Source: a virus
IMG/VR virus record: IMGVR_UViG_3300020595_000080
Coordinates: 1 to 38,538 of that record
Direction: 5' to 3' (one strand)
Length of the DNA: 38,538 nt
Position numbers and translations under genes: made by a program. Positions 4,530 to 29,300 of this stretch are shown piece after piece (position 1 is the stretch's first letter; every line of letters starts with the position of its first letter). The notes under the pieces were generated by a model. That model was not told where the DNA came from. It saw only the letters and a program-made list of their open reading frames with translations, and did not search any database.

Positions 4530-4554
4530 TAGTGCTTAACCTCTCAATTACTAT

Positions 4555-4562
4555 TATTTATC
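4555..4562 (-). promoter_or_regulatory. T4-type late promoter (GATAAATA)
   Basis: The minus strand reads GATAAATA, one base off the T4 late consensus, 25 bases upstream of the ATG at 4529. It sits in the 45-base gap after the preceding gene. Confidence 0.65.
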
Positions 4563-4574
4563 CGTATTATAATT

Positions 4575-8592: not shown

Positions 8593-10682
8593 TAATTAAC
8601 TCCTGTGTAGATAATGTAATTCATCGCCAAGTAAGGGTTAGTAACATCAAGAGCTTCGCCAAGTGAAGTGCTATTTACTCCGCCGCTTGTTGGAATTTTC
8701 TCACTTGTTTCAGAACCAATTTCAAAATCACCCGACAGTACACCTGACGGAAGCGACGCTTCTTTGGTTTCTCTAAATGCGTAAAACTGCTGACCAGTTT
8801 CAGAACGCATATCGTGCTCGTGTTCTGGCAGATTAGATACACCTATTGTAGTGTCTTCGCTACCGCCTACAGCACCTAGTGTACTTGCTGCTGTGTCTGT
8901 TACTCTATTATCAGTCGAAGCAGGTGTTGTGCTGCCCATGTTGTAAAGCCCTAATGGGAATCTACCACGTAGATCAGGTAGCGCAAACTTGCCAGTGCTT
9001 GGTGTTGGATCATAAGTGTACCCCAAAATATCAAACAACGCAGCATAAATCGCAACTTCTAGCTCTTGTCCGTTACAGAATTTCCATCCTGTTGGTTCTG
9101 CTGCGCTTGGCCAAATCATCATGCCGCCAACTGGGCTAATGCCTGGAATATTTTCAAACAGTGTTTGCTTGGTTACCTTACGAAGACCTACGTCTGCGCC
9201 GTCGGTTCTGTCAATAAGTATTAGATCGCTATCTAAGCTGTTTGTAGCCTGTGTTTTAGATGTAATAAAAGCAGGTGCTACAGTAAGATCAAACTGTTTG
9301 GTGCCGCCTGCTCCGTTAAACTCTTGAGAAACAGTTTCAACGTCGCCTGTCAGTTGGAATGTTGTAGAGTTTGCTAGTCGTGTAGCAGTGCCTGCGTTTC
9401 CGGAAACAGACCCGGATACTGTTCCTTCGAGATTACCTACAAACTTACTAGCATATACGTGCTTCCAACGCTTGATAGAGTTACCAATATTTCTTGCGTT
9501 GTCTAAGTCAGGTACAATAACATCACTTGGTAAGTTTGCTGTTCTAGCATGTGCATCCGGAGCTGTTGCTAAATCAAGGTTACCAATTTCGATTGCTTCT
9601 TTAAATGTTGCTCCGCCGCCTACGTTAAGATCTAACGCAACGCCGATGCCGCCTTTTGCTACAATGGAGCCAGTACCAAAAGTACTAGACGCTGTAGTAT
9701 CTGTTATTTCTAGTGCGCCGGATGCTTTAACATCACCTACTACTTCAAGAGCAGCGTCGGGCACTGTTGTATTAATACCAACTTTTTGGTTACTACCTAC
9801 AGATAGTACTGTATTAGTCGTGCCGCCTTCTTTAGTTTTCAGCTCAATATTACCACCTGCGTTATTATGACGAATAACACCAGTAGTAGACGACATGCTA
9901 ATTGAAAGTTCTCTGTTAGCACCGATCTTAATGCCGTCAGCATTTTGAATATTTAACGGGCTTGACGATGTAGACTCAGTATCGCCTCTTAAGAAGTTAC
10001 TTGCTGATACTACTTTGTCACTAACAATAAGGCTTTCTGCTTTTTCAGCAACGCCAAAATACTTAACATTGTTAGCATTATCATTGTCTGTGTCTCTAGA
10101 TGCCAAGTTAAAACCAGGCTTAATAGTTTGACCAGCAAAGCCGTTAATAAACAACTTAGGTGTAAATGTATTAAAAGCAATAATAGCAACAGTGCTAGCA
10201 TTTACTTCCATTTTAATAACATTGTAAGTGTTATCATCAGTACCTACTAGCTGCTCAACGTTAACTCCAGTTGTTAAACCTTCACTAAACTGCGGACCTA
10301 CTAGGATCCATTCAGTGCCAGAGAACAAATATAGCTGCTGTTTTTCTTTGTCAACCCATAAGTCGCCAGTTACGCTATCTGCTACTGCTGGTATCGCTGC
10401 TGCTTTCTGTAGGCCGCCGGCACTTGTAAATTGTGTGCCGTCATAAATTTTAAGTTGTCCGTTAACGTTATCGTACCACAATTGACCTTCTACAGGATTC
10501 GCAGGCTCTAACGGAGACGCAAAGTTTTCAAGTAACCGAACTAGGTCTTCGGCAATAACTTGACCGTATCCTAAAGAGTTTTTACCCGGAAGCTTTAAAC
10601 TTGTCTCGGTATTAATTGTGTTGTCTTCAACAGTAATCGGATTCTTTGCACCGCTGTCTGCATAGTCAATAGTGTACGCCAT
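8592..10682 (-). CDS. Tail fibre-like protein C with phage tail-collar domain
   Basis: 696 residues, the longest of the three fibres. Residues 1-130 are the shared module (LKLPGKNSLGYGQ, LLENFASP, GQLWYDNVNGQLKIYDGTQF, then WILVGPQF). The shaft region carries the motif KVGINTTVPDAALEVVGDVK near residue 305, and RNIGNSIKRWKHVYASKF near 400. Residues about 518-585 form a phage tail-collar domain (family PF07484, as in T4 gp12 and MdpB-like proteins): PVGGMMIWPS, EPTGWKFCNGQELEV, FALPDLRGRFPLGL. The C-terminus has the usual LPEHEHDM segment and ends NYIIYTGVN. The function is host-receptor contact in the tail. The start is supported by GAGGATTAAAA before the ATG. It follows the 203-residue gene with a two-base gap. 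Confidence 0.88.
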   Translation of the reverse strand: MAYTIDYADSGAKNPITVEDNTINTETSLKLPGKNSLGYGQVIAEDLVRLLENFASPLEPANPVEGQLWYDNVNGQLKIYDGTQFTSAGGLQKAAAIPAVADSVTGDLWVDKEKQQLYLFSGTEWILVGPQFSEGLTTGVNVEQLVGTDDNTYNVIKMEVNASTVAIIAFNTFTPKLFINGFAGQTIKPGFNLASRDTDNDNANNVKYFGVAEKAESLIVSDKVVSASNFLRGDTESTSSSPLNIQNADGIKIGANRELSISMSSTTGVIRHNNAGGNIELKTKEGGTTNTVLSVGSNQKVGINTTVPDAALEVVGDVKASGALEITDTTASSTFGTGSIVAKGGIGVALDLNVGGGATFKEAIEIGNLDLATAPDAHARTANLPSDVIVPDLDNARNIGNSIKRWKHVYASKFVGNLEGTVSGSVSGNAGTATRLANSTTFQLTGDVETVSQEFNGAGGTKQFDLTVAPAFITSKTQATNSLDSDLILIDRTDGADVGLRKVTKQTLFENIPGISPVGGMMIWPSAAEPTGWKFCNGQELEVAIYAALFDILGYTYDPTPSTGKFALPDLRGRFPLGLYNMGSTTPASTDNRVTDTAASTLGAVGGSEDTTIGVSNLPEHEHDMRSETGQQFYAFRETKEASLPSGVLSGDFEIGSETSEKIPTSGGVNSTSLGEALDVTNPYLAMNYIIYTGVN

Positions 10683-11316: not shown

Positions 11317-11324
11317 TATTTATC
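11317..11324 (-). promoter_or_regulatory. T4-type late promoter (GATAAATA)
   Basis: The minus strand reads TTTACCCTGATAAATATAG, with the GATAAATA core 20 bases upstream of the ATG at 11296. The core overlaps the TGA stop of the giant gene. The preceding TTTACCCT resembles the sequence before the gp6 promoter (TTTATCCTG). Confidence 0.7.
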
Positions 11325-14300
11325 AGGGTAAATCCACTGGCGTCGAACGAAGAAACTTAGCTATGTCTGTTTCACTGTCTGCTAGCGTTTTATTTGGATC
11401 ACTCCAGGTTCTGCCTTTCTTTCTAACTACAACAACCGTTGTATTTTCTATAGGCGCTGTTGTCAACGACAATATATTGTTGGTTACTGTAAACTCTGCC
11501 GGTAGTGTAATGTCGCCTTCTGGTGAATCCATAGCATTGTCAACTTGGTAAGATTCTAGCGTTGTCTTACGCATTCTCTTACCTGCGACAAATACATCAA
11601 ACTCGTTAACACTGTCGGGTGTAAAGTCTAGTGTGTAATCTGTAGAAGTTCCATCAGCTGTAAACTTAGTTGTGTAAACTTCGTCCTTGTAAGGAATGTT
11701 GTTCTTACCGCTGAGCTCCATACCAACTGTACTTTCAGCATATACATCTTTAATGCCTGTGCCAAGTGTACCACGACGTAGATTCTTTAGAGAGTTGCCA
11801 TCTTTAATAAAGTATTCAATTCTCTCGCCTTCAATCCAAACAACGCCTGGGATGCCGTTAACACTTGGTGTTGTTAGCGCACTAGCATCACTTACTACAA
11901 TTTCTTTATCGTACCAGTTAAGAGCGTTACTTAGAGTAAATCTCTTGTCAACGTCAAAGTTCTGATAATGCGTTCTGTTAAGAATGTCTTTAAACTGCTG
12001 CCACCCAAAGGACTTAATCAACGGATCAGCAGCAAAGTGTACAACAATGAACTCGTCGTCTGGTGCTACAGCGTTAGCAAGTGTTATGATTTGCTTGCTA
12101 TTGTCTAAGTAGTAATCACCGTTAGGTACTAGTAGTACACCATTTTTACTAACCCAAACATACTGCGAATCATAAGCAGGTGAATCAAGTTCAATCTTGC
12201 CTCGCTGTATATTAGATAGTCTAGCGTATTCAGCAGTGCCTTCAGTTAAGTCTCTATCCTTAACTTGTATACGCTGCCATTCGATGTTTTTATGATCGTG
12301 GTTTGTAAATGTAACTACTTTAATGTCTGTGCTAGCAGCATATGTATTACTAAACGTAATAGCTGTGTTGTCAGCTACAAAGTCATTGCCTGTATCAAAG
12401 CTACCAAAAGAATAGTCGCTGTTGTATCTCACATACACTTCTAGTTCAGTGTCAGCAGTTAATGTTACAGAACTAGCTAGGACAACTGTGCCCGTTGACG
12501 GTTCCCAAGTAAACTGTGTAGTTGGTTCTAGTTCAACACCGTTGAGTACAACTTGTAGCATGTAGCCAGCGATATTAGTAATATCCAGAAGCAAGTTATC
12601 AAGTACATATGCGCTAGTGCTAGCGCTAACTGTGAACCGCTGAACATAGCCAGGGTCTAGCAGTCTGTTGTTGGCAATAACAACAGTGTTCCATTCATAC
12701 GGTACTGTGCTTTCCGGCTTAGTTGTTAGATCGTATGCTACTGAACTTCCGTCTGCTACTAGGCTTTCGACTGTTACTTTGCTGTAGTTCTTGTCAGTGT
12801 TAGCACTAAACACAGTGTATTCAATCTTTTCGTTAGCAGTAGCTGGATCACCAAGTACAATAGTAGCTTTGTTGTTTTCTTCAACAATTACATGATCAAC
12901 GCTTTGACCGTTTACAGATACAATGCTTTGTAAATCGTCTTCGTATGTAGCACTCGTTAGTACATTAATCGTGCTTCCGTCACTTGTAAATGTGTCAGAA
13001 TCTAGTATGTTTGCGCCCGATGTCCCAAAGTTATTAATACTAATTACTGCTCTATCTGTTGGTGCGCTAGTAAACTTAACTAACTTAGTCTCAAAATCAA
13101 CAGTAAAGTCAGTATTGTAAACTTGTAATTCGTCATTAACTTTAACAATTACTTGTGTCATGTCAACTATAGCAGCATCAACAGCAAAGTCAGTAGCTGT
13201 GCCGTTTCCGTAGTGTATGTTTGTTGATATGTCACTGTTGGTTCCGAACGGTAATTCGTATACTTTGATGTTAACTGTATCAAGTACATGACCAGGTACA
13301 TGCTCTTCAACACTGCCGCTGTTAATTGGTGTTACGAATCCTTCACCGTCTATAGTAATATCTTCAGCAAGAATACCTCTAGCATTTCCGTATGCTAAGT
13401 TGCCGCCGGATAGCTCAGTATCAATTGAGTTTGGATTCAGTGCGTAAGATCCATCACTAGTAGACTTACGAATTACCAGCTTGTCGCTGCTATCGTAATT
13501 AATAACAACACCAGTGTTGTTGCCGTCTGCTTGAATTGTTTCTAGCTTAAAGTCATCTAAGTAGAAAGTATCAGTTACGCCATCGCCTGTAAGTGTGCGC
13601 ATTATTGCGTTTGGATTTTCAATAACTGTGCTACCGTCGAAGTTTGGATCATCTAGTCTTACGTTGTTCAAGTATACGTTGTACTGAATACCAGTTTCCA
13701 ACGGAGTTGACAACGTAAGTTCTACAGTTGACTCATCAAAGGAGAACACTTCGTCATCATTTGTATCGTCATACGCATCCCACTCTGAAGTGTACCAAGC
13801 ATCGTTATCCCAGCCTTGGATTTGATCAAAGCCTACGCCCTTAACTTCTACGCCGCCGTAATCTACGCCGGTCATAAGCTGAGTAAGATCATTGTCAAGT
13901 TGACCAGTAGTAGGAGCATAAAACTTGCCAATTCTATCCGGTGCGTTGAGTATGTCAATAGCCTTCTTGTAAGAAACTACAACAGTAGTGCCTTGCTCTA
14001 GTCTTTGGGTTGTAGTAATTCTGCCAAGCTCTCTTTTGTAGCTCTTATCTGTGTTTACTACATTTTCAAAAGTGTACTCGCTGCGTAGAAGTTCCACGCC
14101 GTTAGCAGTTATAGTAATGTCACTGTTGTAAAGCTGCATTGGCCACTTTAGATCGTACTCAAAATTACTACCGCTAGCAGTAAACGTTTCTTGAGCATCA
14201 ATGTTAGTAATAGTAAACTTCTTAGCTGTTCTGTCAAACTTCATAGCAGTTTTAAGAGATCTAACCAAGCCGTTGCCTACTTCAATACTAATGCTCGCAG

Positions 14301-17300
14301 GAGTTCCGCCTTCTTTTAGGTTATTGTTAAGTGTTATAGTAGGTGCGCTTGTGTAACCGGATCCTGCGTTTACAATCTCCACCTTGTTTACTTTACCACT
14401 TGTGCCAATGTACGCTTTAAGTTCAGCGCCGCTTCCGCCGCCGCCGGATATAGTAATAACCGGAGCAGTGTAATAGCCTGTACCCGCATCATTAATATGA
14501 GCTGCTGTTAGTTCGTAACCTGCGTTATCGTACCAATGCTTGTTAGGATAGTCTTGAACAAACTCATTAAGTATTTCGATTTCGTTGTTACGAATCTTCG
14601 AAGTAGGATGCTGTAGTGTACCAGTTGTGTTATCGTACACTGGTGTTAGATCAAAGTCAGTAACAAACGAGCGTGTCGGCTCAAGACGTTCGTAAGAACT
14701 TAGGTATTCTCTAATTTTACTCTTGAACGGCTTGACTTCCTTAATGTAGTCTTCGTAATCCGCTAGGTTGTCGTTGTTAAATGTAACATCTTTTCTAAGC
14801 TGTCCTACATTGTGCTTGGCTTTTACAAAACTTGTCTTGAATACCCAGTCAACATTAACTTGTTCACTTAGCACGTAACGCAAACTAGCAAAGAATAATT
14901 TATTAAACTCTTCAAGCAGGTCGTCAACAAAAATGCTATCTTTGATTTCGTTAAGGATAACTCTTAATTCAACAGTTGGCAGGAAGTCATAGTTTCTAAT
15001 ATCAAAGCTATTACTGTCATAACCAAACGCTGGTGGTAAGTACAAGTTACTGGAGAATTGGATTGTACCATTTTCCCTACCAATTGTTTCGTAATCAACA
15101 GTATAATCTAAGCTGTTAGTTGTGTTCACTCGTCTTAGCAGCAACCAACCGCCTGTGCCAATGTTGTTGATCTTTACAACTTCGTTGCGACTAATGTTAG
15201 CGTTTACTAACTGGTTAGATCTTTCAACAATATGATCAATACGAGTGTTATTGTTGTAACCAGTAGCATACCAATCAGTGTAATCCCAGTAAAGTGTAGT
15301 ATCGTAGCTCTGCTTCTTTGTTCTATTCCAAACTTTAGCAGTATTGTCTCTTTCGTATATAGACCACTTGCCGCCGATAGTGTTGTCGTTGTTTACTAAT
15401 ACACTGAACTTTCTAACACTTAAAATTGTGTCAGTAGTTCTGTAGTTTGCGCCTTTGTTAACAACTGTTGCCGTAGCTACTTTACCGAGCGAGTTAATAG
15501 TAACTTCGATTTCAGCATCAGTACCAATACCAAATACTTCTATCTTCGGTGCTACTTTGTAACCTCTGCCTGCGTCTGTAATTTCTACACGTTCAATTTT
15601 GCCGTTTTCAACTACTGGCGTTAGCTTAGCAGGTGATACTTTTTCAACTTGTATATCATTAAGATCATCTAGATCATCTACTGCTTGGTCGTATAAGCCT
15701 TCGCTAATTGACGCAGGAAGATCTGCGTCGAACAGCGCAGTAAGTGACTTGTCGTCAACAATTAAGTTGTCAACGAGCACATAGTTAACACGTTCAATAA
15801 GCTGCTTTAGCGCTTCGAGTCGGTTAACAAACCAGCTCTGTCTTGGTTTAGACAGTGTGCCGTAGCGATACTTAGTTGGGATAGTTGGATCCGGAACTGG
15901 GAATTTATTAATATCGTACCCGATCAAGCTATCAAACCATTTGTTAACAATATCGTCAGTAGGTTGACTTGTTTCTAAACCTTCTGAAACAATTTTATAT
16001 TGAGTGTGAACGTTGGTTCTTTGATCACTTGCTGTGTAAAACTGTACGTTAAGCGCAACGTCGTTGCCTACAAGGTGCTTGTTAACATTGTTAAGTACAA
16101 ACCTATCCGATGATAGGAAGGAAATTGTTTCTAGGTTGTTGCTAACCGGATTAGCAATGTAGCTAGCAATTTGCTTAACGTTTATATTTCTACTCATAGT
16201 AGCTGGCACTGTGTCCTTGTTCTTGACCCAGAAGTAGTACTTTATAGAGAACGTTTTAGAAATACTGTCGTACACTCGCTTAGTTACGTAAGCACTATCA
16301 CTGTATTTAGATGTACCGGTAATACTGTTTCGCACTGCTTCTCTATTATTAGCCAACGACAACTTGTCGTATGCCGAAGGAGTGTAGTCACTTTCAATCC
16401 ATTCGTAAACATCAATTGTACTACCTTCAAATAACGTGTTCCAAGTTTGCGAGCTGTATACAATATCATTTTGGTATGCGTTAATGAATCTAGCGTTAGA
16501 AAGATCCCACCATACTTTACCAACTTGCTCTGGTCCCCACGGTGACTTAGGATCAAGGATAATAGTTCTTGATAGTGCTAAATCATCAGTGACTAGTGTG
16601 CCTGTTGCTACAGAGTACATTGCCGGGTCGTCGTTTGTCTTGTAACTAATTTCTTGATCAGCAGCACCGGCAATCTTACCTTGGAATGGATCTAGGTAAT
16701 CTAGGCTAGTAATCTTCTGATTAGTTTTTGTGTTGTACAAGTAAACTTCTTTAATTTTGTTGACATCAACTGTTGGCTGGATTGCTCTCTTAACTGACCA
16801 TATCGGACTGCCAACTGTGTTAATCTTAAAGCTGTAAATTTCACCCATGTACGTTGTAGCATCAGTTTGCGGCTTAATTGGAATGCCAACAAAAATGTTG
16901 TTATTAGTTAAACGTATGTGCTTTCCAAAGTTAACAAGGTCTTGAGCAGCAACGTCGATCTTCTGTGCTAGCAAGAATTCATCATCAACTTTTTCGTATA
17001 GATAAACTATACCCTGGTATTCGTTAGTGTAACTAAACTTAGTAAAGTTATTATCAAAAGTTGTACTGTTTGAATCAAGTGTAGTAGGTACAATCGCATT
17101 ACCGTTTCTTGACGATATAGCTAACTTATCTCCGTTAAAGTCTAAGTTGTATCCAAATTCTTCGCCACTAGAGTAAGATAAGTTTTCAAGTGTTCTGTGT
17201 AACTCAAACTGTCCGCTTACTTGCTTGTATATAAACACCTGACCTTCGTTATAATGGTAAGTGTCAGCAAGTGGCGCACTTATAGCAATGTACATACCGT

Positions 17301-20300
17301 CTTGACTAATTCCAAGGCTATTTGCTAGACCAAAAGTAGTGTTGTCTAATGCTGTGCTTGAATCATCGCCTGTTACAACAGTTTGACTTAACTGGTAGTT
17401 TTCTTGTACATTACGATATACAACTACTGCTGTTGGCTTGTTATTGTATGTTACTTTTACAACTACAACGTCACCGTTTTTAGAAACGTCAAACTCAGAA
17501 GCAAATGTTTCCATTTGCTCGTCATCTAGAGAGCCAATATAACTACTACTGTCATTAATGACAACCATGTTAGTGCTGTTTGGAATGAAGCCTACGTAAT
17601 CAATGTAGTCTTCTTGTAATGACCAGTTGTTGACATCAAACGCACCCGGTGTTAGGTTAGTTCTAGCTTTGTAAAGTTGATCTCTGTCGCCTGATACAAA
17701 TACAACGTCGCCTGTTCTGTAGTTTAAAGTTTCGTCAAAGCCGCCTTTGTACGCTTTAAACTTTGAGAACTCCCAAGTATACTCAACATTGTTAAACGTG
17801 CCGTTGTTTACAAAGTATAGCTTACCAGGCAAGCTTGTAGCGCCGCTGCCTGCTGCGCCAATAAATGCTTTATAAGTATCGCCGTTCTTACGAACTTTAA
17901 CATTAGATCCAAGGTGTAAGTTAGTTTGCGTATCAATAGTTACATAAGAACCTTGCTCTGCGAAGCTAGATCCCTTAAATTCATAAACAGAATACATACC
18001 TTGATTAGTATAAGCACTTGCTGTTCCGTCTGCGTCAGCTGGAATGTTGTAAACTTGTTCCCAGTTGCTGTTTAGAATGCTCGGAGCATCGTTGGAAACT
18101 GGTTCACCTGTTACTTGTCTATTTGTGTAGAACCAATATTCTGCGTCTACAAGTTCAGTAACACTTGTGTCAGTCGGTAGCGCAATATTAGTGCTAGTAT
18201 CAATTACAATAAGTTTACCGATGCCGTTTGCTACAGAACCAATACTTACTGCTTGTATATCACCAATTAGTCTGTCTGCTTGGTATACTGGGTTAGTGCT
18301 GCCAGATACTGCTAAGAATTCAAGCTCAGACGTATCGCTAAACAACTCGCCCTTGCTCCAAGCGCCTGCTGTATTAGATACAAACAGTGTAATATCAACG
18401 CCGTCTCTTTCGTAGAACTGAACTGTTGCTGTTGCGCCTGTTGTAACATCACGCACTACCTGTCCTACTAGTGGCTCAAATGGTTGACCACTAGTGTCAA
18501 ACTGTGTAAATCGTACTTTAATGTAACCATCCCATAAAGCGTCAACAGTTACTTCAGTGTTTGTATCAGTAGTTGTTAAACCAATAGTTGTTAAGTCTTT
18601 AAACTCGCCAGTTGTGTAGTTGGCTAACTGATTTACGTAAATGTTTACAGTGTCAGTAGCAGACAGTGTATCTGTAAGTGCTTTAGGAGCTCTTATTACC
18701 CAACGACTATCAAGCTTGGCGCCAGACACATCGTCTGCGTTTGGATAACCTTCGCTTGACAGTGTTCTAATAAACGAGTTAATGTTATTTTCACTATCTA
18801 CAGTTACGGTGTTTGTGTCAAGTACATTGTAGTAGTAATTACCAAATGTACTATCATTGCTCATGTCTACAAATACTAAACCTTTGCCCGTGTCAGACAA
18901 TGTAGATGTTAGTGTTGGTGTGTAGCTTGGTGTAGAAATCATCCAGAACCCGCTGTACACTGTGCCATCTGTATCTAGCTGCTTAACAAAATCACCAACA
19001 AATTCGCCAGTTGTTCTAAACATTGAATCTGTAGAGTTAAATGTGCCAGAAACTTTATTTAGGTATATCACATGCTTGTTTTCGTCATTAACGTGAACAT
19101 ACGCAACTACGCCAGCGCCAGTAGCAGTCTGTAATGTTTCGCCTATTTCTGGAGTAACGTTAGTGTTGTCAAAGAACACTACTATGTCAACACTGTTAAT
19201 AATACCGTGAGTGCCGCTAATAAAGCTGTCGTTGATGCCAGCAAACGTTCCGCCGAATGGCTGCTTGGCTGCTAGTGTTTCTTGATTTTGATTTCCGTAT
19301 GTAAGTGTATTCCACTGTAGCGACACTTGCCAATCGTTATCACTTGTAATAGTGTTATCGTACAATGCTTTAGGAGCACGTACAAGAATGTGATCAACTT
19401 GGTCAGTAAACGCAGACAAGTTAGTGTCTGTACGTATCGCATAGTTACCTATTGCCATTGCCGGTGTATTGTATCCTGCGTTACTTTGTTCGCCGAGGGT
19501 ATATACACCCTGTACTACACTCGAGAATGTATTAAAGTTTGCTCCTGCTGTCACTGACGGTAAATCAAACTTTGCTTTCCAAATTCTATCTTTGTAAGAA
19601 ACAATATCATCTTTATCGTAGTCCGTTGATAGCGAGAACGCACTCTTGTAGTTTGTCTTTACATTAGACGCATTCGGCGAACCTACTAATAACCATTTAC
19701 CGTCTTCACTCAAATCTACCGAAGCGCCAAACTTTTGATTATCAGCAGCATACGCCGCTGGTTCAATAACTTGAATCATTTTGTAGCCGACTCTACTACT
19801 GTTTCTCTTGTAAACAAAAAGGCGTCCGTTACTGTTATCTGGATCTCCGGCAATAATAACATTGCCAGAACGATTAGAAGCTATAACACTAGCAAATGTC
19901 TTAGAGTATTCAAAATCCGGATCATCTTCTGTATCAGGTCCTGTAATTTCCGAATCAACACTAAACAGGTTATTGTTTTCAAGTACTTTCCACTCGTCGG
20001 TGCCTACGTTGTCAAGCCATATAGTTGTATTCTCACGGAAGTACTGCTGTAGGTTAGTGTTAGCAGCATTTACGTCAGCGTGTCTAGCAGATTCGAATCT
20101 AGTTAATTCACCGTTAACATCTTCAGTGCCGTCAAAGTTACCACTTTCTCTAAGTGTTTTAAATTCTTCAGTATCGGGCATTTCTACTGTTACAATGTTA
20201 TGAGTTACGCCAGTTACCTTAGTTAAGAAGCTAAACTGCTCATAGTTTGTAACAGTATCTAGTGTCTTAGTGCTGTCAGCAAGGACCACGTCACTTGCTT

Positions 20301-23300
20301 CCATTCTCCATACAGAGTGTATTCCAATAACATCACCAACAGCAATATCTTCAATTTCGTGACTTGCTGTTATTTCAATGCTGTTAGCAGTTAGAATAAT
20401 GTTAGTGATTCTAGTATTAGTATCAACGTGTCTTAGAACGTTCCAGTTGCTGTTCTCGTTACCGACCCAGATAAACTCACCTTCGGGAACTTTGGAAATA
20501 TCAACACCGACAACATCGTCTAGTGTTGGAACAATAAGACTTACATCATCTTTATGTACATAACCAGCAGTGTTAACATAACTGTCAACAACAGTTTTTG
20601 CTGGGAATGGACTGTTGTTGTAGTTCTCAGTTTGTACTGAAACTTCGTATGGTCTAATTCTGTAAACTGTATCAGTTGGTGCTACAGGCACATCGCTTGT
20701 TAGCAAAATAGGCTGAGGATTTACAAGTATCTTAGATTCGTCAATGTTTATTTCAAGTTCGTCAAACGAGTCAACAGCGCCGTACTGGCCATCTCTAATT
20801 GCCCACTCTTCGTGGAACTCTAAACTGTCTTTTTCACTGCTTGCTAATACGTCAAACAGTTTGGATAAAGAGTTTACTGTTCCTTTTTCAAGGATCATGC
20901 CTTGGTAGAACTTGTACTGACTTACACTGTTATTAATGATATTCTCTAAGTAATTACGCTTTTGATAACCAATTAAGTGCTGAGCAAAACGCTGCTGCTC
21001 AGTATCAAGGTTATCACTATCAAGATCGTAAAAATCAGTAAACTGATTTACTTTGTATTCAAAGTTAGGTAGTAGTCCCTGGCGTGGCTTTTCGTCCAGC
21101 TTGACCCACTGACTTTCTACAAACTCATTGCTGCCTGCGATCTTTTCATCAGCAACATAGTAGAACTGCTTGAACTTAACAAGGCTGCCAATTGAGTATG
21201 CTTTAAACTGCTCCCATTCAGTAGCAGTAGCATCGTCGTATATAAACCCTGGAATATTTTTACTACCTGTCCATTCGTCAGTTCGGTATCCAAGTAGCTT
21301 AATGCGCTCTTGTCTGTACCCCGGCGTTTGATCGTAAATTACATCGTTGAACACAGTTTCGTTATCTAATAAAACAACGTGCTCAGTTTGGGTCATCGGT
21401 AATTCAACGTAAAATACCCCGGCGCCTGTGACGTCTGGATTTACGTAAAGAATAAAGTCATTATCTCGACGATTAATTGTTGTGTTATCAAGCTCTAAGT
21501 AAGTACCGTTAGCTTGTAACAAAGTATAATCATTTGGTCCTGTTGTAATATTAGACACAATAGAATAATTACTAGCTAATTGTAAGTACGAAGCACCTGG
21601 ACTTAAAGAAATAACTGCTCCGTCACTAAGTTCGTATAATGTCCAGAACATAAATTCACGAATAGTGTGGTCCCAATCTAATACTTTACCAATGTCTTGA
21701 TCAAAGAAATCAAACACAAAGCCCTTACTGGTCAAGTAAGATTCATAACTTAAAATAAAGTCTACTACTTCTTGTATTGTCGCAAACAGTGTACCGTACG
21801 GAACTTCAGTAACTGTACTTGTATCAAAGTTTGTTCTAATAACAGCGTCACGACCACCTGTAACAGGCAGATTAGGCAACTTAGCAAAGTTATTAAGATT
21901 AAACTCAATTTCTTGATTGTCCACTACGGTTCTATAGTAACTGTTGTTATTTCTAACTACAGTGCCCTTAGCATAAAAGTTACCACTTACCCATTCTACA
22001 AATTCTTCACTAACGCCGCCGACGTTAATTGTGCTGTCGCTTCCTCTCGAAGCAACTTTATGAGTTAAGAAGAAGCTGCGTGACTCACTGTATCCTTTAA
22101 CTAGGAAGCCTTCGGCCCGGCGCTCGATAATTACGCCGCTGTAGTTAATTAAATCAGTCGGAGAGCTTTCGTTAATAATAATTTGATAGTTTTCTTCAGG
22201 TACAAAAACGTTGCCCTTGTTTAGCGGAGTACGACTGTCAAGAATTAGCTTTAGCTTAGACTGGTCAGTAAAGCCTGCTAGTTTAAATCCTAACTGGTTC
22301 TTGATCGACGACAATGTAGTTTTATAATTTTTGTAAGAATTAGATACACTAGTTTTAGTAAATTCAGCAATGTAATTAACTATGCCACTAGTATGTAAAT
22401 CGGTTGTATCGGTAGTGTCTTGAGGGAAAGCAATATCCGCTAGGCGCAATCGAAGACCAGTCGGCTTGTATATTAAGTTGCCTGCCTTGTTTCTAATCTG
22501 GTTTACACGGTCAAAGCCAGCAGCAAACAATCTGCCCGGCTTGTTAAGGGCAAACGCAATAAGCATAGAGAACGGAAATTCGCTATGTCTGCGCCAAGCT
22601 GCTTCAACTGGACCGCCGTCGCCAAACACCCAAGGACGTTCGATGAGCTCCGAGCTGTAGTTAAACACTAGACCAATTTCAAGCGGAGAAACTAAATCGC
22701 CGCAATCGTCAACAGGAACAATGTTTATCAATCCTGGGCGCTTATAGTTGTCTCTATATTCAATTCTACGATCTTGATGGCGTAAGATACCTGCTTCGAT
22801 ATCTTCCCACATCAAGTAGTTTTCACTAGTATACGGAGCTTCGCCGTATGTTTCTTCCCACCATGTTGGCTTGATTGTTTCGCCTAGCATTTCCCATGGA
22901 TGAGTATGTGGACGATCAGTGTCGTAGTAGTATTTGTAAATTTCACGCCAAAAGCCAGGCAGTGCTACATTGTTATCGTCAAAGCTTGAACGATAGTTGT
23001 AGGTAAATCTGTTGTCTCTGTTAAATGTTTGACGAGTGTAATCAACTGTTACAAGTTTTGTCCACTGGAAAAAGTCTGCTAGCAGAGTCTTGTCAATATT
23101 GCTTCTGCTAATATTGTTCGGACGATAATAACTTGGACGTACTTCTAAAATGTCAAACTCAGTAGAGTCATACGCAACTTTAAGGTTGTTGTAAATTCTC
23201 TTTTCAAGCTCAAGTAATAGGTCATCACGGTAGTCGTCGTATGCTGTTACAATAGATCCGTCGTGCCCTTGAATGACATTTACTGGAGTTAAGTAAGTAT

Positions 23301-26300
23301 TGTCCGTAAACTTTGCTGGTTCGAACGCAGGATATAGTCCAAGCTTAGTCGGAGTTGGAGCAATGTAGTTACCTTTTGTACTGTCGTATTCATAAATGGT
23401 AATTACATCCTGCGGCTGCTTGGTTGCTGTTACTACCGCATAGCCTTCATCGTTGAAGGTATAGTCTTTACCGTGGATAAGCTGTACATCATTTAGGTAC
23501 ACCAATGATGCTTTGTAGCTCGGAGTAGAAAGATCAAAGTTTTCACCAAGTGGGAAATAAATCTCATCTGAATCTTCTACAGTATGCTCGGTCATAATAG
23601 CGCCGCTGTACGGAACCATGTCACTGAAGTAGAACACATCAGAAACTGATTTGCTTTTGTTAAGCTCTTGTAGAATTCTGTCAACGTGATTCTTTTGTGA
23701 ACCATCAAAGCCTAGGTTTTCAGCAACAGTCAAAAACTCTCGCTTGAATCTGCTGTACTCAGTTTTAGCAAACTTAATACTCTTTACTAAGTTAACTTCT
23801 CTTTCAGTTGTATGGTACAACGGCAAGTTCATCGGCGCACTGTGCTGTAAGAATCTACGACCGTTAGCTGTTACGTTGCCCAGGTCACGTAGGTTACTTG
23901 TGCCAGGGTATTTGCCGTTAAATCCTGTAGTGTGTTCAACGATAGTCGAAACGTGATCGTTAATTTCACCAAGTGTAAAATCATCTAGCTGATCGTTATT
24001 TGGATTTCTTTCCATGCTATACGGAAACTCGTAGTACCCGGTATTGGTTTTAAGTTGACTGCTATTTGTTTTAAGTAAAATTACATCGTCTTTTTCAAGA
24101 TCTTTTACAAATACAATTTTAGCAAAGTTAGCAGGGTGTTGTTCAATTGTGTAGTCAACATCTTTAACTTGGAAGTCATTATTTCTGTAAACAATAATAT
24201 CCATAGATTCAACATAATCGTAACTGTCAACATAGCTATCAATTAGAATGTCAGTAAAAGTATTGTCGTAAACATACTGTCGTATTACAAACTGTCTACT
24301 CGAATCAACTTTAGTCCAGCCAGTTTGCTGTGTGTAAGAATCAATGTCTGTGTACAAGTGTAAATAACCAAGCACTGTGGTTTGTGTTTTTACATCTTGA
24401 TTTTCAACATAGGTAAACGTGTCAGTCGAAAGATCCGACTGGAAGACAATGTCGCCTACATTAGTAATGTTTTTGTAAGATAACGGAAAGCCTAATTCAT
24501 TGTCGTTTGATCCGGTTCCTTCCTTGTAACTAAACATCTTAGTACCAGTAAAAGTAGTCGACGGATAAATTGTTGCGTCAGCAAAGCTGTAACCGTTTTC
24601 GTCAAATACGTCAAACAGCGGAGCTTGGTTCACTGCTGTTTTCTTTTGTGTGTTTATCCAAGCGCTGTTTTTGTAATGTAAAGTAGTGCCTTTGAATTTG
24701 TTGCCGCTTTTAATCAATACAGTTTCGCCCTCTGCAGGAACACTGTCACTTTCTTCTACAAGTGTTATCTGTCTTTGGCCACTGACATTAGCATCATCAA
24801 CAACAGTTCCGTCGTAAGTAAAGTATTTTACTCTAAAGATTCTATTCTTTACTAATGGATCAGGATCGTTAGTAAACATTACTCGCTGACCATTAGCAAG
24901 CTCTACACCATCTACAAAGTAACCTAAGCTGCCTTCAATAGTAGAAAATACGTCAGCGGTAAAATCGTCAACTAAGTCGACGCTTGTTTTAGCCTGTGTA
25001 CCGAAGTTAGAAAGCTTAATGCCACTATTAAATTCAATAATTGGGCGACTTGCTTGTGCTGTAGCATCAACACTTACAGGTTGATTGTTAGCAGCAGCGC
25101 TCGCTTCAATAACACTCTTATGGAACCAACGGTTATGTCTTGTCCATAAATTACCATCATTTGCCGAACGATTAATTGTGATGTAATCTTTGTCTTGCGA
25201 GTAGCCTAGTGCTTTACTGTATGGTAAATTGTCAAAGCCTAGTGTGTCAAAATTCACTGTAATTTCTTCAGTGAACTCAGTAGCAACATCTAGTGAATCT
25301 TCAGCTATCAGTTTAATGCTCGATCCTACGCCTTCTACATAAAACTCTTTGTTAGCGTAAGAAGCCGGTGTAACGTCGCCGATGAACTGAATTTTCATTC
25401 CGTTGCTAAGCGCTACGCCGTTGCCGGAAGTGTATGTTTTCATCCCAACAATCTCACTGCTTACATCAATAGCAGAAGCATCTTGAAGATCCTTAACTTC
25501 AATCTTACCATGAATATTAACATCGTTAGCAGCAACATACCAAATGTTGTCTGGAGCAGAAGTACTCAGCTCAATAGTTACTATGCCTTTTTCTAATCCT
25601 TGGACATCTACACCTTCGTACAATAGAATAGAAGAGCTATCAAGATCAAACTCAGTTTCAGTTGTAAGCTTAGACTTAAACGTAATCGGAAAGTCTGGAA
25701 GGTTTACGTCAAACTTATACTTTACGCCCCTGTATAAAGTTAGTGACGGATTAGGTGTTTCGCCGTCCGGCGTGAATATGTAGCTGTACGAGTCTAAGTT
25801 ATCACTCAGTCGTACTGTAAATGTGCTTTCAACTTCGGTGCTTTGGCCAGCAATACTAATAGTCTGCGGTCCGGTTGGTAACCAAAAGTACTCTCTAAAG
25901 TTAGTAAATTTGTCCCAATCGATATACGGGTTCCAAGCATAGAATTCTTGCTCGTTTACTACGTTATGGTCTTGGATCGATCTGTTGTAGTTTTTAAGAC
26001 TATTCATGTAATCGTTGTAGTCTCTATAAAGAAGAACGTTACCTAACTCGTCTTTGGCTACGGCTGCTGACTCAAGTTGATAATCCTCACGGGAAGTGCT
26101 TACGTCTTGAACATATACGTCATCTGCTGTAAATGCTTTAGCAGTTTTACGCCCTACATAACCATTGAGCTTGTTAACAACACCAGGTTGTATCATCTGG
26201 TCTAAGGTAGAACTAAGAAACTTCGAGTTAGAAGGTGTTCTAAAAATACGTGGTAAGTGCTCTTCACTTCTACGTTTTGACTTTCCTTTTACCGGAAGCT

Positions 26301-26331
26301 TTGGTTCGTCTTGAAAATTATCGTAAGCCAT
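11323..26331 (-). CDS. Giant modular baseplate/tail structural protein (5002 residues)
   Basis: One uninterrupted frame of 15 kb, far longer than the genes 7 and 8 that follow gene 6 in T4. The N-terminal ~170 residues (PRIFRTPSNSKFL, LDQMIQPGVVNKLNGYVGR, FYAWNPYIDWDKFTNFREYF) and a Trp-rich core at about 1128-1300 (GFWREIYKYYYD, PTWWEETYG, WVFGDGGPVEAAWRRHSEFP) resemble the large structural proteins of cyanophages. Further modules are: four CBM5/12-like segments (about 1440-1488, 1704-1750, 2229-2270, 2858-2910), FG-GAP-like propeller blades (2145-2225 and 2943-3165), a duplicated pair of segments around 2317 and 2545, 'GxGYxxAPxI' repeats (3573-3635, 3941-4024) and beta-sandwich repeats from about 4190 to the end. 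No signal peptide or catalytic motif is evident. It starts two bases after gp6 with a strong AGGAGGT. Likely role: baseplate periphery linking wedges to fibres, and glycan contact (inferred). Confidence 0.85.
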   Translation of the reverse strand: MAYDNFQDEPKLPVKGKSKRRSEEHLPRIFRTPSNSKFLSSTLDQMIQPGVVNKLNGYVGRKTAKAFTADDVYVQDVSTSREDYQLESAAVAKDELGNVLLYRDYNDYMNSLKNYNRSIQDHNVVNEQEFYAWNPYIDWDKFTNFREYFWLPTGPQTISIAGQSTEVESTFTVRLSDNLDSYSYIFTPDGETPNPSLTLYRGVKYKFDVNLPDFPITFKSKLTTETEFDLDSSSILLYEGVDVQGLEKGIVTIELSTSAPDNIWYVAANDVNIHGKIEVKDLQDASAIDVSSEIVGMKTYTSGNGVALSNGMKIQFIGDVTPASYANKEFYVEGVGSSIKLIAEDSLDVATEFTEEITVNFDTLGFDNLPYSKALGYSQDKDYITINRSANDGNLWTRHNRWFHKSVIEASAAANNQPVSVDATAQASRPIIEFNSGIKLSNFGTQAKTSVDLVDDFTADVFSTIEGSLGYFVDGVELANGQRVMFTNDPDPLVKNRIFRVKYFTYDGTVVDDANVSGQRQITLVEESDSVPAEGETVLIKSGNKFKGTTLHYKNSAWINTQKKTAVNQAPLFDVFDENGYSFADATIYPSTTFTGTKMFSYKEGTGSNDNELGFPLSYKNITNVGDIVFQSDLSTDTFTYVENQDVKTQTTVLGYLHLYTDIDSYTQQTGWTKVDSSRQFVIRQYVYDNTFTDILIDSYVDSYDYVESMDIIVYRNNDFQVKDVDYTIEQHPANFAKIVFVKDLEKDDVILLKTNSSQLKTNTGYYEFPYSMERNPNNDQLDDFTLGEINDHVSTIVEHTTGFNGKYPGTSNLRDLGNVTANGRRFLQHSAPMNLPLYHTTEREVNLVKSIKFAKTEYSRFKREFLTVAENLGFDGSQKNHVDRILQELNKSKSVSDVFYFSDMVPYSGAIMTEHTVEDSDEIYFPLGENFDLSTPSYKASLVYLNDVQLIHGKDYTFNDEGYAVVTATKQPQDVITIYEYDSTKGNYIAPTPTKLGLYPAFEPAKFTDNTYLTPVNVIQGHDGSIVTAYDDYRDDLLLELEKRIYNNLKVAYDSTEFDILEVRPSYYRPNNISRSNIDKTLLADFFQWTKLVTVDYTRQTFNRDNRFTYNYRSSFDDNNVALPGFWREIYKYYYDTDRPHTHPWEMLGETIKPTWWEETYGEAPYTSENYLMWEDIEAGILRHQDRRIEYRDNYKRPGLINIVPVDDCGDLVSPLEIGLVFNYSSELIERPWVFGDGGPVEAAWRRHSEFPFSMLIAFALNKPGRLFAAGFDRVNQIRNKAGNLIYKPTGLRLRLADIAFPQDTTDTTDLHTSGIVNYIAEFTKTSVSNSYKNYKTTLSSIKNQLGFKLAGFTDQSKLKLILDSRTPLNKGNVFVPEENYQIIINESSPTDLINYSGVIIERRAEGFLVKGYSESRSFFLTHKVASRGSDSTINVGGVSEEFVEWVSGNFYAKGTVVRNNNSYYRTVVDNQEIEFNLNNFAKLPNLPVTGGRDAVIRTNFDTSTVTEVPYGTLFATIQEVVDFILSYESYLTSKGFVFDFFDQDIGKVLDWDHTIREFMFWTLYELSDGAVISLSPGASYLQLASNYSIVSNITTGPNDYTLLQANGTYLELDNTTINRRDNDFILYVNPDVTGAGVFYVELPMTQTEHVVLLDNETVFNDVIYDQTPGYRQERIKLLGYRTDEWTGSKNIPGFIYDDATATEWEQFKAYSIGSLVKFKQFYYVADEKIAGSNEFVESQWVKLDEKPRQGLLPNFEYKVNQFTDFYDLDSDNLDTEQQRFAQHLIGYQKRNYLENIINNSVSQYKFYQGMILEKGTVNSLSKLFDVLASSEKDSLEFHEEWAIRDGQYGAVDSFDELEINIDESKILVNPQPILLTSDVPVAPTDTVYRIRPYEVSVQTENYNNSPFPAKTVVDSYVNTAGYVHKDDVSLIVPTLDDVVGVDISKVPEGEFIWVGNENSNWNVLRHVDTNTRITNIILTANSIEITASHEIEDIAVGDVIGIHSVWRMEASDVVLADSTKTLDTVTNYEQFSFLTKVTGVTHNIVTVEMPDTEEFKTLRESGNFDGTEDVNGELTRFESARHADVNAANTNLQQYFRENTTIWLDNVGTDEWKVLENNNLFSVDSEITGPDTEDDPDFEYSKTFASVIASNRSGNVIIAGDPDNSNGRLFVYKRNSSRVGYKMIQVIEPAAYAADNQKFGASVDLSEDGKWLLVGSPNASNVKTNYKSAFSLSTDYDKDDIVSYKDRIWKAKFDLPSVTAGANFNTFSSVVQGVYTLGEQSNAGYNTPAMAIGNYAIRTDTNLSAFTDQVDHILVRAPKALYDNTITSDNDWQVSLQWNTLTYGNQNQETLAAKQPFGGTFAGINDSFISGTHGIINSVDIVVFFDNTNVTPEIGETLQTATGAGVVAYVHVNDENKHVIYLNKVSGTFNSTDSMFRTTGEFVGDFVKQLDTDGTVYSGFWMISTPSYTPTLTSTLSDTGKGLVFVDMSNDSTFGNYYYNVLDTNTVTVDSENNINSFIRTLSSEGYPNADDVSGAKLDSRWVIRAPKALTDTLSATDTVNIYVNQLANYTTGEFKDLTTIGLTTTDTNTEVTVDALWDGYIKVRFTQFDTSGQPFEPLVGQVVRDVTTGATATVQFYERDGVDITLFVSNTAGAWSKGELFSDTSELEFLAVSGSTNPVYQADRLIGDIQAVSIGSVANGIGKLIVIDTSTNIALPTDTSVTELVDAEYWFYTNRQVTGEPVSNDAPSILNSNWEQVYNIPADADGTASAYTNQGMYSVYEFKGSSFAEQGSYVTIDTQTNLHLGSNVKVRKNGDTYKAFIGAAGSGATSLPGKLYFVNNGTFNNVEYTWEFSKFKAYKGGFDETLNYRTGDVVFVSGDRDQLYKARTNLTPGAFDVNNWSLQEDYIDYVGFIPNSTNMVVINDSSSYIGSLDDEQMETFASEFDVSKNGDVVVVKVTYNNKPTAVVVYRNVQENYQLSQTVVTGDDSSTALDNTTFGLANSLGISQDGMYIAISAPLADTYHYNEGQVFIYKQVSGQFELHRTLENLSYSSGEEFGYNLDFNGDKLAISSRNGNAIVPTTLDSNSTTFDNNFTKFSYTNEYQGIVYLYEKVDDEFLLAQKIDVAAQDLVNFGKHIRLTNNNIFVGIPIKPQTDATTYMGEIYSFKINTVGSPIWSVKRAIQPTVDVNKIKEVYLYNTKTNQKITSLDYLDPFQGKIAGAADQEISYKTNDDPAMYSVATGTLVTDDLALSRTIILDPKSPWGPEQVGKVWWDLSNARFINAYQNDIVYSSQTWNTLFEGSTIDVYEWIESDYTPSAYDKLSLANNREAVRNSITGTSKYSDSAYVTKRVYDSISKTFSIKYYFWVKNKDTVPATMSRNINVKQIASYIANPVSNNLETISFLSSDRFVLNNVNKHLVGNDVALNVQFYTASDQRTNVHTQYKIVSEGLETSQPTDDIVNKWFDSLIGYDINKFPVPDPTIPTKYRYGTLSKPRQSWFVNRLEALKQLIERVNYVLVDNLIVDDKSLTALFDADLPASISEGLYDQAVDDLDDLNDIQVEKVSPAKLTPVVENGKIERVEITDAGRGYKVAPKIEVFGIGTDAEIEVTINSLGKVATATVVNKGANYRTTDTILSVRKFSVLVNNDNTIGGKWSIYERDNTAKVWNRTKKQSYDTTLYWDYTDWYATGYNNNTRIDHIVERSNQLVNANISRNEVVKINNIGTGGWLLLRRVNTTNSLDYTVDYETIGRENGTIQFSSNLYLPPAFGYDSNSFDIRNYDFLPTVELRVILNEIKDSIFVDDLLEEFNKLFFASLRYVLSEQVNVDWVFKTSFVKAKHNVGQLRKDVTFNNDNLADYEDYIKEVKPFKSKIREYLSSYERLEPTRSFVTDFDLTPVYDNTTGTLQHPTSKIRNNEIEILNEFVQDYPNKHWYDNAGYELTAAHINDAGTGYYTAPVITISGGGGSGAELKAYIGTSGKVNKVEIVNAGSGYTSAPTITLNNNLKEGGTPASISIEVGNGLVRSLKTAMKFDRTAKKFTITNIDAQETFTASGSNFEYDLKWPMQLYNSDITITANGVELLRSEYTFENVVNTDKSYKRELGRITTTQRLEQGTTVVVSYKKAIDILNAPDRIGKFYAPTTGQLDNDLTQLMTGVDYGGVEVKGVGFDQIQGWDNDAWYTSEWDAYDDTNDDEVFSFDESTVELTLSTPLETGIQYNVYLNNVRLDDPNFDGSTVIENPNAIMRTLTGDGVTDTFYLDDFKLETIQADGNNTGVVINYDSSDKLVIRKSTSDGSYALNPNSIDTELSGGNLAYGNARGILAEDITIDGEGFVTPINSGSVEEHVPGHVLDTVNIKVYELPFGTNSDISTNIHYGNGTATDFAVDAAIVDMTQVIVKVNDELQVYNTDFTVDFETKLVKFTSAPTDRAVISINNFGTSGANILDSDTFTSDGSTINVLTSATYEDDLQSIVSVNGQSVDHVIVEENNKATIVLGDPATANEKIEYTVFSANTDKNYSKVTVESLVADGSSVAYDLTTKPESTVPYEWNTVVIANNRLLDPGYVQRFTVSASTSAYVLDNLLLDITNIAGYMLQVVLNGVELEPTTQFTWEPSTGTVVLASSVTLTADTELEVYVRYNSDYSFGSFDTGNDFVADNTAITFSNTYAASTDIKVVTFTNHDHKNIEWQRIQVKDRDLTEGTAEYARLSNIQRGKIELDSPAYDSQYVWVSKNGVLLVPNGDYYLDNSKQIITLANAVAPDDEFIVVHFAADPLIKSFGWQQFKDILNRTHYQNFDVDKRFTLSNALNWYDKEIVVSDASALTTPSVNGIPGVVWIEGERIEYFIKDGNSLKNLRRGTLGTGIKDVYAESTVGMELSGKNNIPYKDEVYTTKFTADGTSTDYTLDFTPDSVNEFDVFVAGKRMRKTTLESYQVDNAMDSPEGDITLPAEFTVTNNILSLTTAPIENTTVVVVRKKGRTWSDPNKTLADSETDIAKFLRSTPVDLP

Positions 26332-26333
26332 TG

Positions 26334-29300
26334 TTAATAGCTACCTCCTGTTGTCGAACTTGTACTTGTACTTGTTACATTCAAGCTCGTGCTCTGAATA
26401 CCTGTGTTTACTGCGGTAGTACTTGTGGAAATATTGCCACTTGTCTGTAGTTTAGTAGCAGTTACTTCGTCAATAATTTCAATATCACTAACTCGTGCGC
26501 CACTAATGAATATTTCGTCTGCTTCTGCTTTTACTTCAAACAAACTACCAAATACGTCTAATGAACTGTTTGGTACAACTACAAATGTTACTAAGTTCGG
26601 ACTTAGTTGCTGTAATACATATGCTGTTAGTTCCGAGAAGTAGAACGTGTCGCCAAAGTCCCAATTTTCCAAAGCAAAGAATTGGTTAATAGCCGCTAGT
26701 GTCTGTGCTATTAAATCATTATCGTTAATAACTACTTCTGGATTCTTTACAATTTTAAATGTTGCCTGCAAGTTAGAGTCTGCTTTATTGCCAAATAGTA
26801 TCTTATACTTAACCGGATGGTAAACAATTTCATCACTAATTGACTTAATTTTGTTAAGCTCTGTACTGTAATTCAAGTACAGTTGATCACTACTTGACGG
26901 AAGCGGATAAGTTGCTTGATCCTGTAGGTAAAGTCTAAACTGGGTGTCATAAGAAGCAGTTAGCATGTAAACGTCAATTATATTACTTGCGCTTGGATCT
27001 AAACGTCTGTCTTTATCCGCAGCGTGAACATAGTGGAATTTAATGTTGTCTCTGCCTTTGTGTCCTACGTAATCTGCTGTAGTTAACAATTGGCTTGTTT
27101 CTTTGTTTAATACTTGGAATAGATTTTCTTGTATAAAGTAGAAAATTTGTCCATCATCATAAACACTAGTAACTTGTAAATCACTACGCTTAGCAAATAT
27201 AACAATAGCATCATTTGAATTATCAAAGTAAGTGTATGTCTCAGTACCGTCGATATTTGTTTGCTTTTTCCTAAACACTACTTTACTAGTTTCGTTTACG
27301 TCTTCAGCAACTACTTGTTCGAACAAGTTAGGGTCGTCTACTACACCATCTTCGTCGCTGTCAAAGAACGTAATTTCAATTTTACTACTATCAACATAAC
27401 CGTCAGAGTCCCTAACAGTTGCTACTATTTCCCAATCGAAATCAGTAGTAAAAGATTCTAAGCTATCGGGCTTTGTATTAATACTCAATACTGAAATTTT
27501 ATCCTTGATAACTTTACCAGAACTAGTTTCAAATACCTTATCCGAAGAGTCAAAGAAGAATCTAATCTCACTAGGGCTTTCAAACACGTATCGACTTGTA
27601 CGATATGTAATGTTATACTTTTTTCCAACTGGCTCAAACAACAATATCCAGCTTGAGTCAACTTGCTCACTTGAAGTGTTGCCTGCTTTTGTTAGCGAGA
27701 AGTTACTAATTAAATCCAAGTTGTCCAGTGTAATTACTTTCCACTCCTGGCTAGTACTATCAAATCGTAATCCAAATGTGTTATTAGAAAAACATTGATC
27801 TATAATTTGGACTTTTATGTCGTCGGTAATAATATTTGCTAACTTAGGAATAACCCTGTCAAGTTTAGCACCAGTTGGAATACTGTCAGTAAGCTTAACA
27901 GCGCCGGAGCTGTCTGTGCCTGTATCGGTGCCATCACCTTGTACGCTTATTATCTTAGACCAAATATATGTCTTAGCGCCTATATGGTCAGCAGCGCCTG
28001 CCATTAAGGTGTTGTCATCCATAAAGTGGAAGCCGTCTGGTGCTGTAAATTTTACAAGTGTGTTTGGTACTAACAAACTAAGTGAAGACTTAGAAAAGCT
28101 TCCTAGTGGAACATTCTCGCCACTTGTGTCAGTTACAAATCCTGTATTTTGATTAGTTTTAGTTGTTTTGCTATCCCAAGTATAGTTGTTATCAACAACA
28201 GACAGAACCGGATACTCGTTATAGTAAAAATTACGTATGTTGTAATCTTTAAGTAACGGCTGAATTGTGTTTTCTATAGCACCTTCGATATCAGTTTTAG
28301 TTTCGTAAGTAAAGTTAGTTTTACTAGTGCTGTCTTCTTTGTAAATAATACCGTCGTTGCCGAACAAATTAGTTTTGCTGTATCTTCCGGTACTGTCGAT
28401 TAAATCAAAATACCTACTAATACCACTGCTAGTACGGTTTACGCTTTTTACTTTTACAACTTCTTGATTGCGTGTTAGCGGAGCTACTTGATAATCTTCA
28501 GCTGTAATCATTCTGTTCTGAGTGTAGTAGTTACTAGGCGCATTATTTTTAATATTTTCATTTGATTCAGAAGCTGCGCCGTTGTCAATTGCCGTCTTTA
28601 GCTGTAGCGTAAGCGACAACGTTTCTAGTTTATTTGTATGACTAATGTACGGCATTGTTACTGTTATAGTACCTAAGTTGTTAGGTGTAATAATAGTAGT
28701 AGAAGAGTCGCTTATTCTGTAATAAACTTTGAAATTACCTTTCGGTACATTGCCAAATACACCGTCGCCGAACACCAAGCTCATTCTATCTTCAATACGT
28801 GTTTGTACACTGTAAATGTTCTTAACGCCTTTTTCAACACTGTTGTAAATTACGTTGTTACCTTCAGTAGCACTAACCTTTGTCCATAGCTCAGCTTCCC
28901 TGCCAGCGTCGTCGAGGGAGTAAAGCCAAACATCAGTTTCGTTAATGTTTATATCATCAATAGCAACTACTTGATTAGTAGTTGGATTAGATAAGAAGAA
29001 CGTACCGTCTACAAGCTCACCTTGTCTAAAGTGTGTAAAGTAACCGTTAGAATCACTAGCTTTGCCTTTGCCGTCATCTTGGTAGATAAAGGAAAACTTG
29101 TTTCCTAGGAATGGATCCTCTTCTTGGATCATGCCTTCGGAAACTTTTGTACTAACAACTTCGAACTTTTTGTTTACACCATTTACAGCTCGAGTAAACG
29201 GAAACAACGGTAAGTCTTCGTTGTTAGAATTAACACGGTACTGCTCAGTGTACACACCATTTACTGTGTCTTTAGCAATTGGATTTCCAATACCAGCATT

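Follow-up and report, generated by a model that had tools for sequence, protein, structure and literature searches.

In phage T4, the gene of the baseplate wedge subunit gp6 is followed by that of gp7 (1,032 amino acids, aa), with gp8 as a separate protein, whereas in P2 the counterpart of gp6, gpJ, is followed by gpI (Tail_P2_I), which has 176 aa. Cyanophages also carry an annotated gp7 directly after gp6, with 3,007 aa in S-SSM7 and 5,195 aa in P-SSM2 (PSSM2_111), the latter having a recognisable, N-terminal gp7 core and being followed by a separate 533-aa gp8. The RaK2-, PA5oct- and 121Q-like jumbo phages are without recognisable gp7 or gp8, hence the interest in how their baseplates are built. 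Here we describe a giant gene in this slot on the virus contig IMGVR_UViG_3300020595_000080, which we analysed over its entire length of 38,538 nucleotides (nt; the window) and which is itself a genome fragment, so that genome-wide checks for gp7 and gp8 were made in relatives. The gene lies directly after gp6, is under strong purifying selection and has homologues whose products are on record from virions of jumbo phages; its own product is probably a baseplate wedge subunit of a contractile jumbo phage of the RaK2/PA5oct/Atu_ph07 type, standing in place of gp7.

The giant is encoded on the minus strand by a single open reading frame that runs from an ATG to a stop codon over 5,002 codons with zero internal stops and takes up 38.9% of the window, while the five alternative frames of the same stretch hold 219-703 stops each. 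Only 2 nt separate the gp6 stop codon from its ATG, and the 15-kb frame, its share of the window and its position in the T4 gp7 slot, all pointed out in an earlier note on this DNA, are thereby borne out. The frame is not an assembly accident, since a contig from another metagenome (L010) is 99.95% identical across residues 1-4333, L031 is a full-length 5,001-aa relative with 92.4% identity, and further relatives on viral contigs (4,739-5,207 aa), presumably marine judging by the company in which they occur, are each encoded in one frame. Comparison with the L031 relative gave a nonsynonymous substitution rate (dN) of 0.041 and a synonymous rate (dS) of 0.606 (dN/dS 0.068), and the ratio stays at 0.034-0.105 in every 500-codon block, with no relaxed block. 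We conclude that the gene is genuine and unbroken and that it is under constraint throughout; from its length, the mass of the protein is estimated at ~550 kDa. A near-identity search of phage isolates with positions 1-24000 of the window returned zero matches, and the T4 late-promoter octamer TATAAATA, with one site against 3.5 expected, was uninformative.

To place the protein in a family, we used profile hidden Markov models (HMMs) and translated searches. Matches to the HMM of phrog_10938 ('virion structural protein') span residues ~18-3530 with expectation values (E) down to 1e-134, and tblastn with the first 1,000 residues found 57 phage records, including Atu_ph07 (E 2e-82), Phosso, Vibrio 2.275.O, SCTP-2 and PA5oct-like, 121Q/PBECO4-like and RaK2-like phages. 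With the exception of SCTP-2, the homologue is the next gene after gp6 in annotated jumbo genomes, at 3,326-4,555 aa: the PHROG 10938 giants comprise RaK2 ORF070 (3,326 aa), PBECO4 gp538 (3,333 aa), PA5oct gp355 (3,857 aa), Atu_ph07 gp180 (4,449 aa) and the proteins of Phosso (4,555 aa), Vibrio 2.275.O (3,771 aa) and SCTP-2 (ORF140, 3,807 aa), and XacN1 ORF325 (3,313 aa), in the same slot, was aligned with them here. The order gp25-gp6-giant is common to the window, PA5oct, PBECO4, Vibrio 2.275.O, Atu_ph07 and Phosso, and the giant also directly follows gp6 in RaK2 and XacN1. Homology between the window giant and the jumbo-phage giants covers residues ~1-1990 and 3190-4030, and more than 2,500 residues can be aligned across phages of unrelated hosts (RaK2, Atu_ph07, PA5oct). 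Another predicted giant, A0A6J5L0K2 from an uncultured Caudovirales phage, shares 41% identity with the second conserved block across 895 columns, but bears a YHYH annotation for which the window giant has no match. Evidence from virions comes from relatives: the database record of PA5oct gp355 carries a note of electrospray-ionisation tandem mass spectrometry (ESI-MS/MS), and in the virion proteome of phAPEC6 (PMC7247149) a protein of 381.88 kDa with 17 unique peptides, gp245, is the next entry behind gp244, which is labelled 'baseplate wedge'; by size and neighbour, gp245 should be a homologue of the giant.

Size and slot are thus precedented by the jumbo-phage homologues and by the P-SSM2 protein, and the novelty implied in the earlier note falls away, as the annotations of RaK2-like and PA5oct-like phages, Atu_ph07 and cyanophages already include giants of 3.3-5.2 thousand residues in the gp7 slot. 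The window giant adds a large new member to a jumbo-phage family that is already known, and it is longer than the PHROG 10938 proteins of isolates. What looks new is that it can be tied, if weakly, to the gp7/gpI wedge protein and that it has an additional, rapidly changing block apparently devoted to binding sugars or cell surfaces.

In a block map from an alignment of 19 giants, residues 1-160, 380-1990 and 3190-4030 are conserved, and those at about 150-370, 2000-3170 and 4250-5002 are variable (see the table for these and all other features), so that the conserved N-terminus, the Trp-containing core and the several kinds of beta modules noticed earlier are real. To determine whether the core is related to known wedge proteins, we compared it with gp7 and gpI. 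No T4 gp7 HMM (phrog_964, Pfam Gp7 domains) matches the window giant, and neither gp7 nor P2-gpI HMMs (PF09684 included) reach threshold anywhere in the family; moreover, phrog_964 and the gp8 family PF09215 are silent in eight complete jumbo relatives, while both are detected in T4 and P-SSM2. We also scanned the whole giant blindly, in slices, by profile-profile comparison with a profile of 85 gp7-like cores and with a P2 gpI profile made from diverse sequences gathered by hand, a viral-contig gpI scan having yielded near-identical copies only. With the gpI profile, residues 1814-1843 (KGT...EEW) rank first with a score of 26.5, compared to a top of 20.4 among 196 column-shuffled slices and of 18.0 among 31 slices of other baseplate proteins. 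The same site ranks second with the gp7-core profile (24.9, against 18.0 and 17.5 for the corresponding nulls), and both scores lie above the 17.7 reached by the accepted pair gp7-gpI. When the window giant was aligned with seven others that are 22-65% identical to it, the K, G and T of the motif were the same in all eight. We disregarded one hhalign score, 134 over only 11 columns, as a numerical artefact.

The likeness to P2 gpI consists of the slot after gpJ, the KGT...EW motif and the best profile score, while that to T4 gp7 consists of the slot after gp6 and the short KG motif region. No overall alignment of P-SSM2 gp7 with the window giant was found, although GxGY modules are present in both. 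On these profile comparisons we lean towards a gp7/gpI ancestry for the giant.

No such signal emerged for gp8. The T4-type gp8 profile scored 24.9 on the giant against a null of 22.9, whereas the positive control, T4 versus cyanophage gp8, gave E 9e-12. Profiles containing cyanophage gp8 matched most strongly at the promiscuous GxGY module, and outside this module T4 gp8 (PF09215, phrog_438) produced only weak short matches with such profiles (33-36, in residues 2401-3000). As T4 gp8 is without signal, a fusion of gp7 and gp8 is unsupported and was rejected. The earlier note had named separate gp7 and gp8 orthologues elsewhere in the genome as the finding that would speak against its reading, and the eight complete relatives have no detectable separate gp7 or gp8 homologue. 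PA5oct gp358 is the one protein with a clear gp10-like C-terminus; other matches, weaker and partial, occur in PA5oct and in Vibrio 2.275.O.

The variable parts hold most of the adhesion-like modules, and the block richest in them is among the fastest evolving parts of the giant. This central block has no tblastn match in the phage-isolate collection, and the equivalent stretches of Atu_ph07, PA5oct and SCTP-2 contain no Pfam domain. Pfam FG-GAP_2 was detected in 11/11 aligned relatives (best E 2.2e-15) and scores 21.3 bits in the window giant, just under the 23-bit cut-off; by HMM, FG-GAP repeats are present, and they are predicted to be propeller-like. CBM_5_12 was detected in nine of 11 aligned relatives (best E 5.8e-10) and lies under the curated cut-off in the window giant, where four modules were placed by iterated HMM; one stretch of an AlphaFold model of residues 985-1990 can be overlaid on the chitin-binding domains of chitinases at 1.9 Å. 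We read these modules as members of the CBM5/12 family, with glycan binding as their putative function. PF03906, the T7-fibre-N domain, was found in 4/10 aligned relatives (best E 5.9e-7). Judged by such domains, residues ~2000-3170 and the C-terminus look like surface-binding or fibre-docking parts.

The best reading of these data is a wedge subunit of the gp7/gpI type that has grown by the addition of adhesion modules, against which several observations weigh. The gp7/gpI match spans 15-25 columns at single-comparison E of 0.002-0.006, short of significance by itself, and another slice (801-1000) scores 25.2 with the gpI profile. With the gp7 profile, the top slice is 4801-5000 (26.1), which probably shares a module with the cyanophage gp7 sequences that went into this profile. 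The conserved blocks have no sequence match to any solved baseplate protein: a PDB sequence search with the N-terminal 1,000 aa found nothing, and PDB profile searches returned only chitin-binding domains, weakly, for residues 985-1990 and, for 3150-4040, nothing but a tailspike that matched the GxGY stretch. AlphaFold models of the latter two segments had mean predicted local distance difference test (pLDDT) values of 47 and 62, so that folds could not be compared and structure does not settle the wedge mechanism; they gave no significant fold match in the PDB, and matches in BFVD were to family members or at module level. The binding roles are read from domain names alone, and in Salicola phage SCTP-2 (L009 / MF360958.1) gp6 lies ~80-90 kb from the giant, which there follows a 3,096-aa protein, showing that adjacency is not universal and that the gp6-giant pair can be split.

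The marginal gp7 homology, with no gp7 or gpI HMM over threshold in the family, would also fit a protein that took over the wedge position without descending from gp7/gpI, a quite conceivable, if on balance doubtful, alternative. VrlC of pelagimyophages and cyanomyophages is a proposed case of such a replacement: in these phages T4 Gp7 is reported to be absent, with VrlC apparently in its place (PMC7029224), and it is by this reported role that VrlC resembles the giant. It accounts poorly for the KGT...EEW site, which both profiles picked above shuffled and real-protein controls and with better scores than gp7 and gpI achieve with each other. The FG-GAP, CBM5/12 and T7-fibre-N-like modules, the fibre-type genes that come next and the failure of the most module-rich block to match phage isolates could instead mark the giant as mainly an adsorption (receptor-binding) protein or a fibre base on the baseplate. 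We consider this quite unlikely, because so much of the chain is alignable across phages of unrelated hosts, unlike host-specific fibres, its position after gp6 is near-fixed, and the complete relatives offer no other gp7 candidate. The length and the two conserved blocks with a variable one between them could also suggest a polyprotein cut into gp7-, gp8- and pin-like proteins, but gp8 gave no signal, no processing site was recognised and phAPEC6 gp245 is listed at its full predicted mass, which is still compatible with cutting; this we regard as very improbable. The earlier suggestion that one chain joins wedge, connector and receptor-binding roles therefore survives in part: a wedge role is very probable, gp7 homology is weak and confined to one short motif, receptor-binding modules are suggested, and the gp8 part finds no support.

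In the preferred gp7/gpI-type wedge reading, the core (~1-1990), with its gp7/P2-gpI-type element near residue 1816, would bind gp6 and the gp25- and gp53-like subunits to form the wedge, and the second conserved block would extend the wedge outward. The FG-GAP/CBM5/12 block and the C-terminal T7-fibre-N-like modules would then lie at the periphery, where they may touch cell-surface glycans and/or dock the fibres whose genes lie just downstream. A single chain would in this way cover tasks that in T4 are spread over gp7 and perhaps a number of peripheral proteins. A bolder version, which we hold as a speculation and think rather unlikely, is that the ~550-kDa chain joins a gp7/gpI wedge core to fibre-docking modules and to an adhesion cassette (FG-GAP propeller, CBM5/12) that can be exchanged, makes gp8 and separate peripheral baseplate proteins dispensable, and allows host range to shift by swapping the internal block. 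If true, host range could change via an internal block of a wedge protein and not via a fibre tip. The FG-GAP/CBM block is itself a candidate host-recognition cassette within a wedge protein. The family alignment, the candidate KGT...EEW core and the division into conserved and variable parts add up to a model specific enough to be tested by a single baseplate structure.

Table. Features of the giant gene and of its baseplate neighbours (positions are those of the window).
Feature	Length or residues of the giant	Position	Strand	Basis
Giant baseplate protein, PHROG 10938 member, complete frame with stop	5,002 aa	11323..26331	-	frame, family, dN/dS
AGGAGG ribosome-binding site, 12 nt 5' of giant ATG		26344..26349	-	direct reading
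Conserved N-terminal domain (LPxxFRT...KFLxxTLDQ; YxWxPxIDxDKFxNFxxYYW)	1-160	25852..26331	-	alignment, 19 giants
Conserved core, common to all jumbo relatives	380-1990	20362..25194	-	alignment and family matches
Aromatic signature WRxxYxxxxDTDRPHTHPWEMLGFxxxPxWW	1130-1180	22792..22944	-	
CBM5/12-like module 1	1446-1480	21892..21996	-	iterated HMM and model superposition
CBM5/12-like module 2	1705-1740	21112..21219	-	iterated HMM
Candidate gp7/gpI-type core (FYQGMIxxKGT 1808-1818 ... EEWA 1841-1844)	1770-1855	20767..21024	-	
Lineage-specific fast-evolving block, FG-GAP propeller-like repeats and CBM5/12	2000-3170	16822..20334	-	
FG-GAP repeat	2195-2231	19639..19749	-	Pfam FG-GAP_2
CBM5/12-like module 3	2230-2267	19531..19644	-	iterated HMM, Pfam
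CBM5/12-like module 4	2860-2897	17641..17754	-	iterated HMM
Further FG-GAP-like repeats	3007-3022 and 3057-3086	17074..17313	-	
Second conserved block	3190-4030	14242..16764	-	alignment
GxGY module(s)	3560-3636	15424..15654	-	
GxGY module	3946-3999	14335..14496	-	
Variable C-terminal string of beta modules	4040-5002	11326..14214	-	alignment
T7 tail-fibre N-terminal-like module	4374-4455	12967..13212	-	Pfam PF03906
Module ...GERIEYF...LRRGTLGTG; cyanophage-containing gp7 profile aligns too	4804-4859	11755..11922	-	
PHROG 7145 wedge subunit, read as gp53-like	108 aa	34343..34669	-	gp53 name from relative's annotation
gp25-like wedge subunit	166 aa	29848..30348	-	phrog_261
gp6 baseplate wedge subunit, immediately upstream of giant	1,154 aa	26334..29798	-	phrog_10646, E 3.8e-287
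PHROG 11259 protein, downstream of giant	203 aa	10685..11296	-	family match

The minus-strand genes are arranged in the order structural protein (34669-35487), PHROG 7145 wedge subunit, structural protein (32094-34343), gp5-type hub, gp25, gp6, giant, 203-aa protein and fibre-type genes, and the plus strand encodes gp55 (late sigma), gp47 and gp46, a layout that agrees with the PA5oct and PBECO4/RaK2 neighbourhoods, the divergent gp55-gp47-gp46 included. In Xanthomonas phage XacN1 (L048 / AP018399.1), an M23-family peptidase gene of the baseplate operon lies directly upstream of the wedge gene in the gp25 position. The PHROG 11259 protein is present in single copy in 8/8 complete jumbo relatives and in neither T4 nor P-SSM2, and it is a candidate for a missing peripheral wedge role. 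We rejected it as a hidden gp7 or gp8, having found no profile signal to gp7, gpI or gp8. The gp5-like hub protein (30348-32093, minus strand, 581 aa) differs from the hub of RaK2 (886 aa) in that it has no Pfam domain and hence no recognisable lysozyme; wall-degrading activity is not evident within the window.

Three fibre-type genes on the minus strand (8592-10682, 7177-8592 and 3045-4529) have a common N-terminal domain (GxGE/GYG...LLENFA...GQLWYD); the first has a tail-collar domain inside and the last a weak C-terminal match to Peptidase_G2, an autoproteolytic chaperone. The minus-strand frames 4575-5006 and 4958-7177 overlap by 49 nt, and the GTG start of the former (143 aa) is uncertain. 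The adjacent, similar-looking minus-strand genes at 1120-2067 and 2076-3041 (315 and 321 aa), which have no PHROG match, are probably a tandem duplication.

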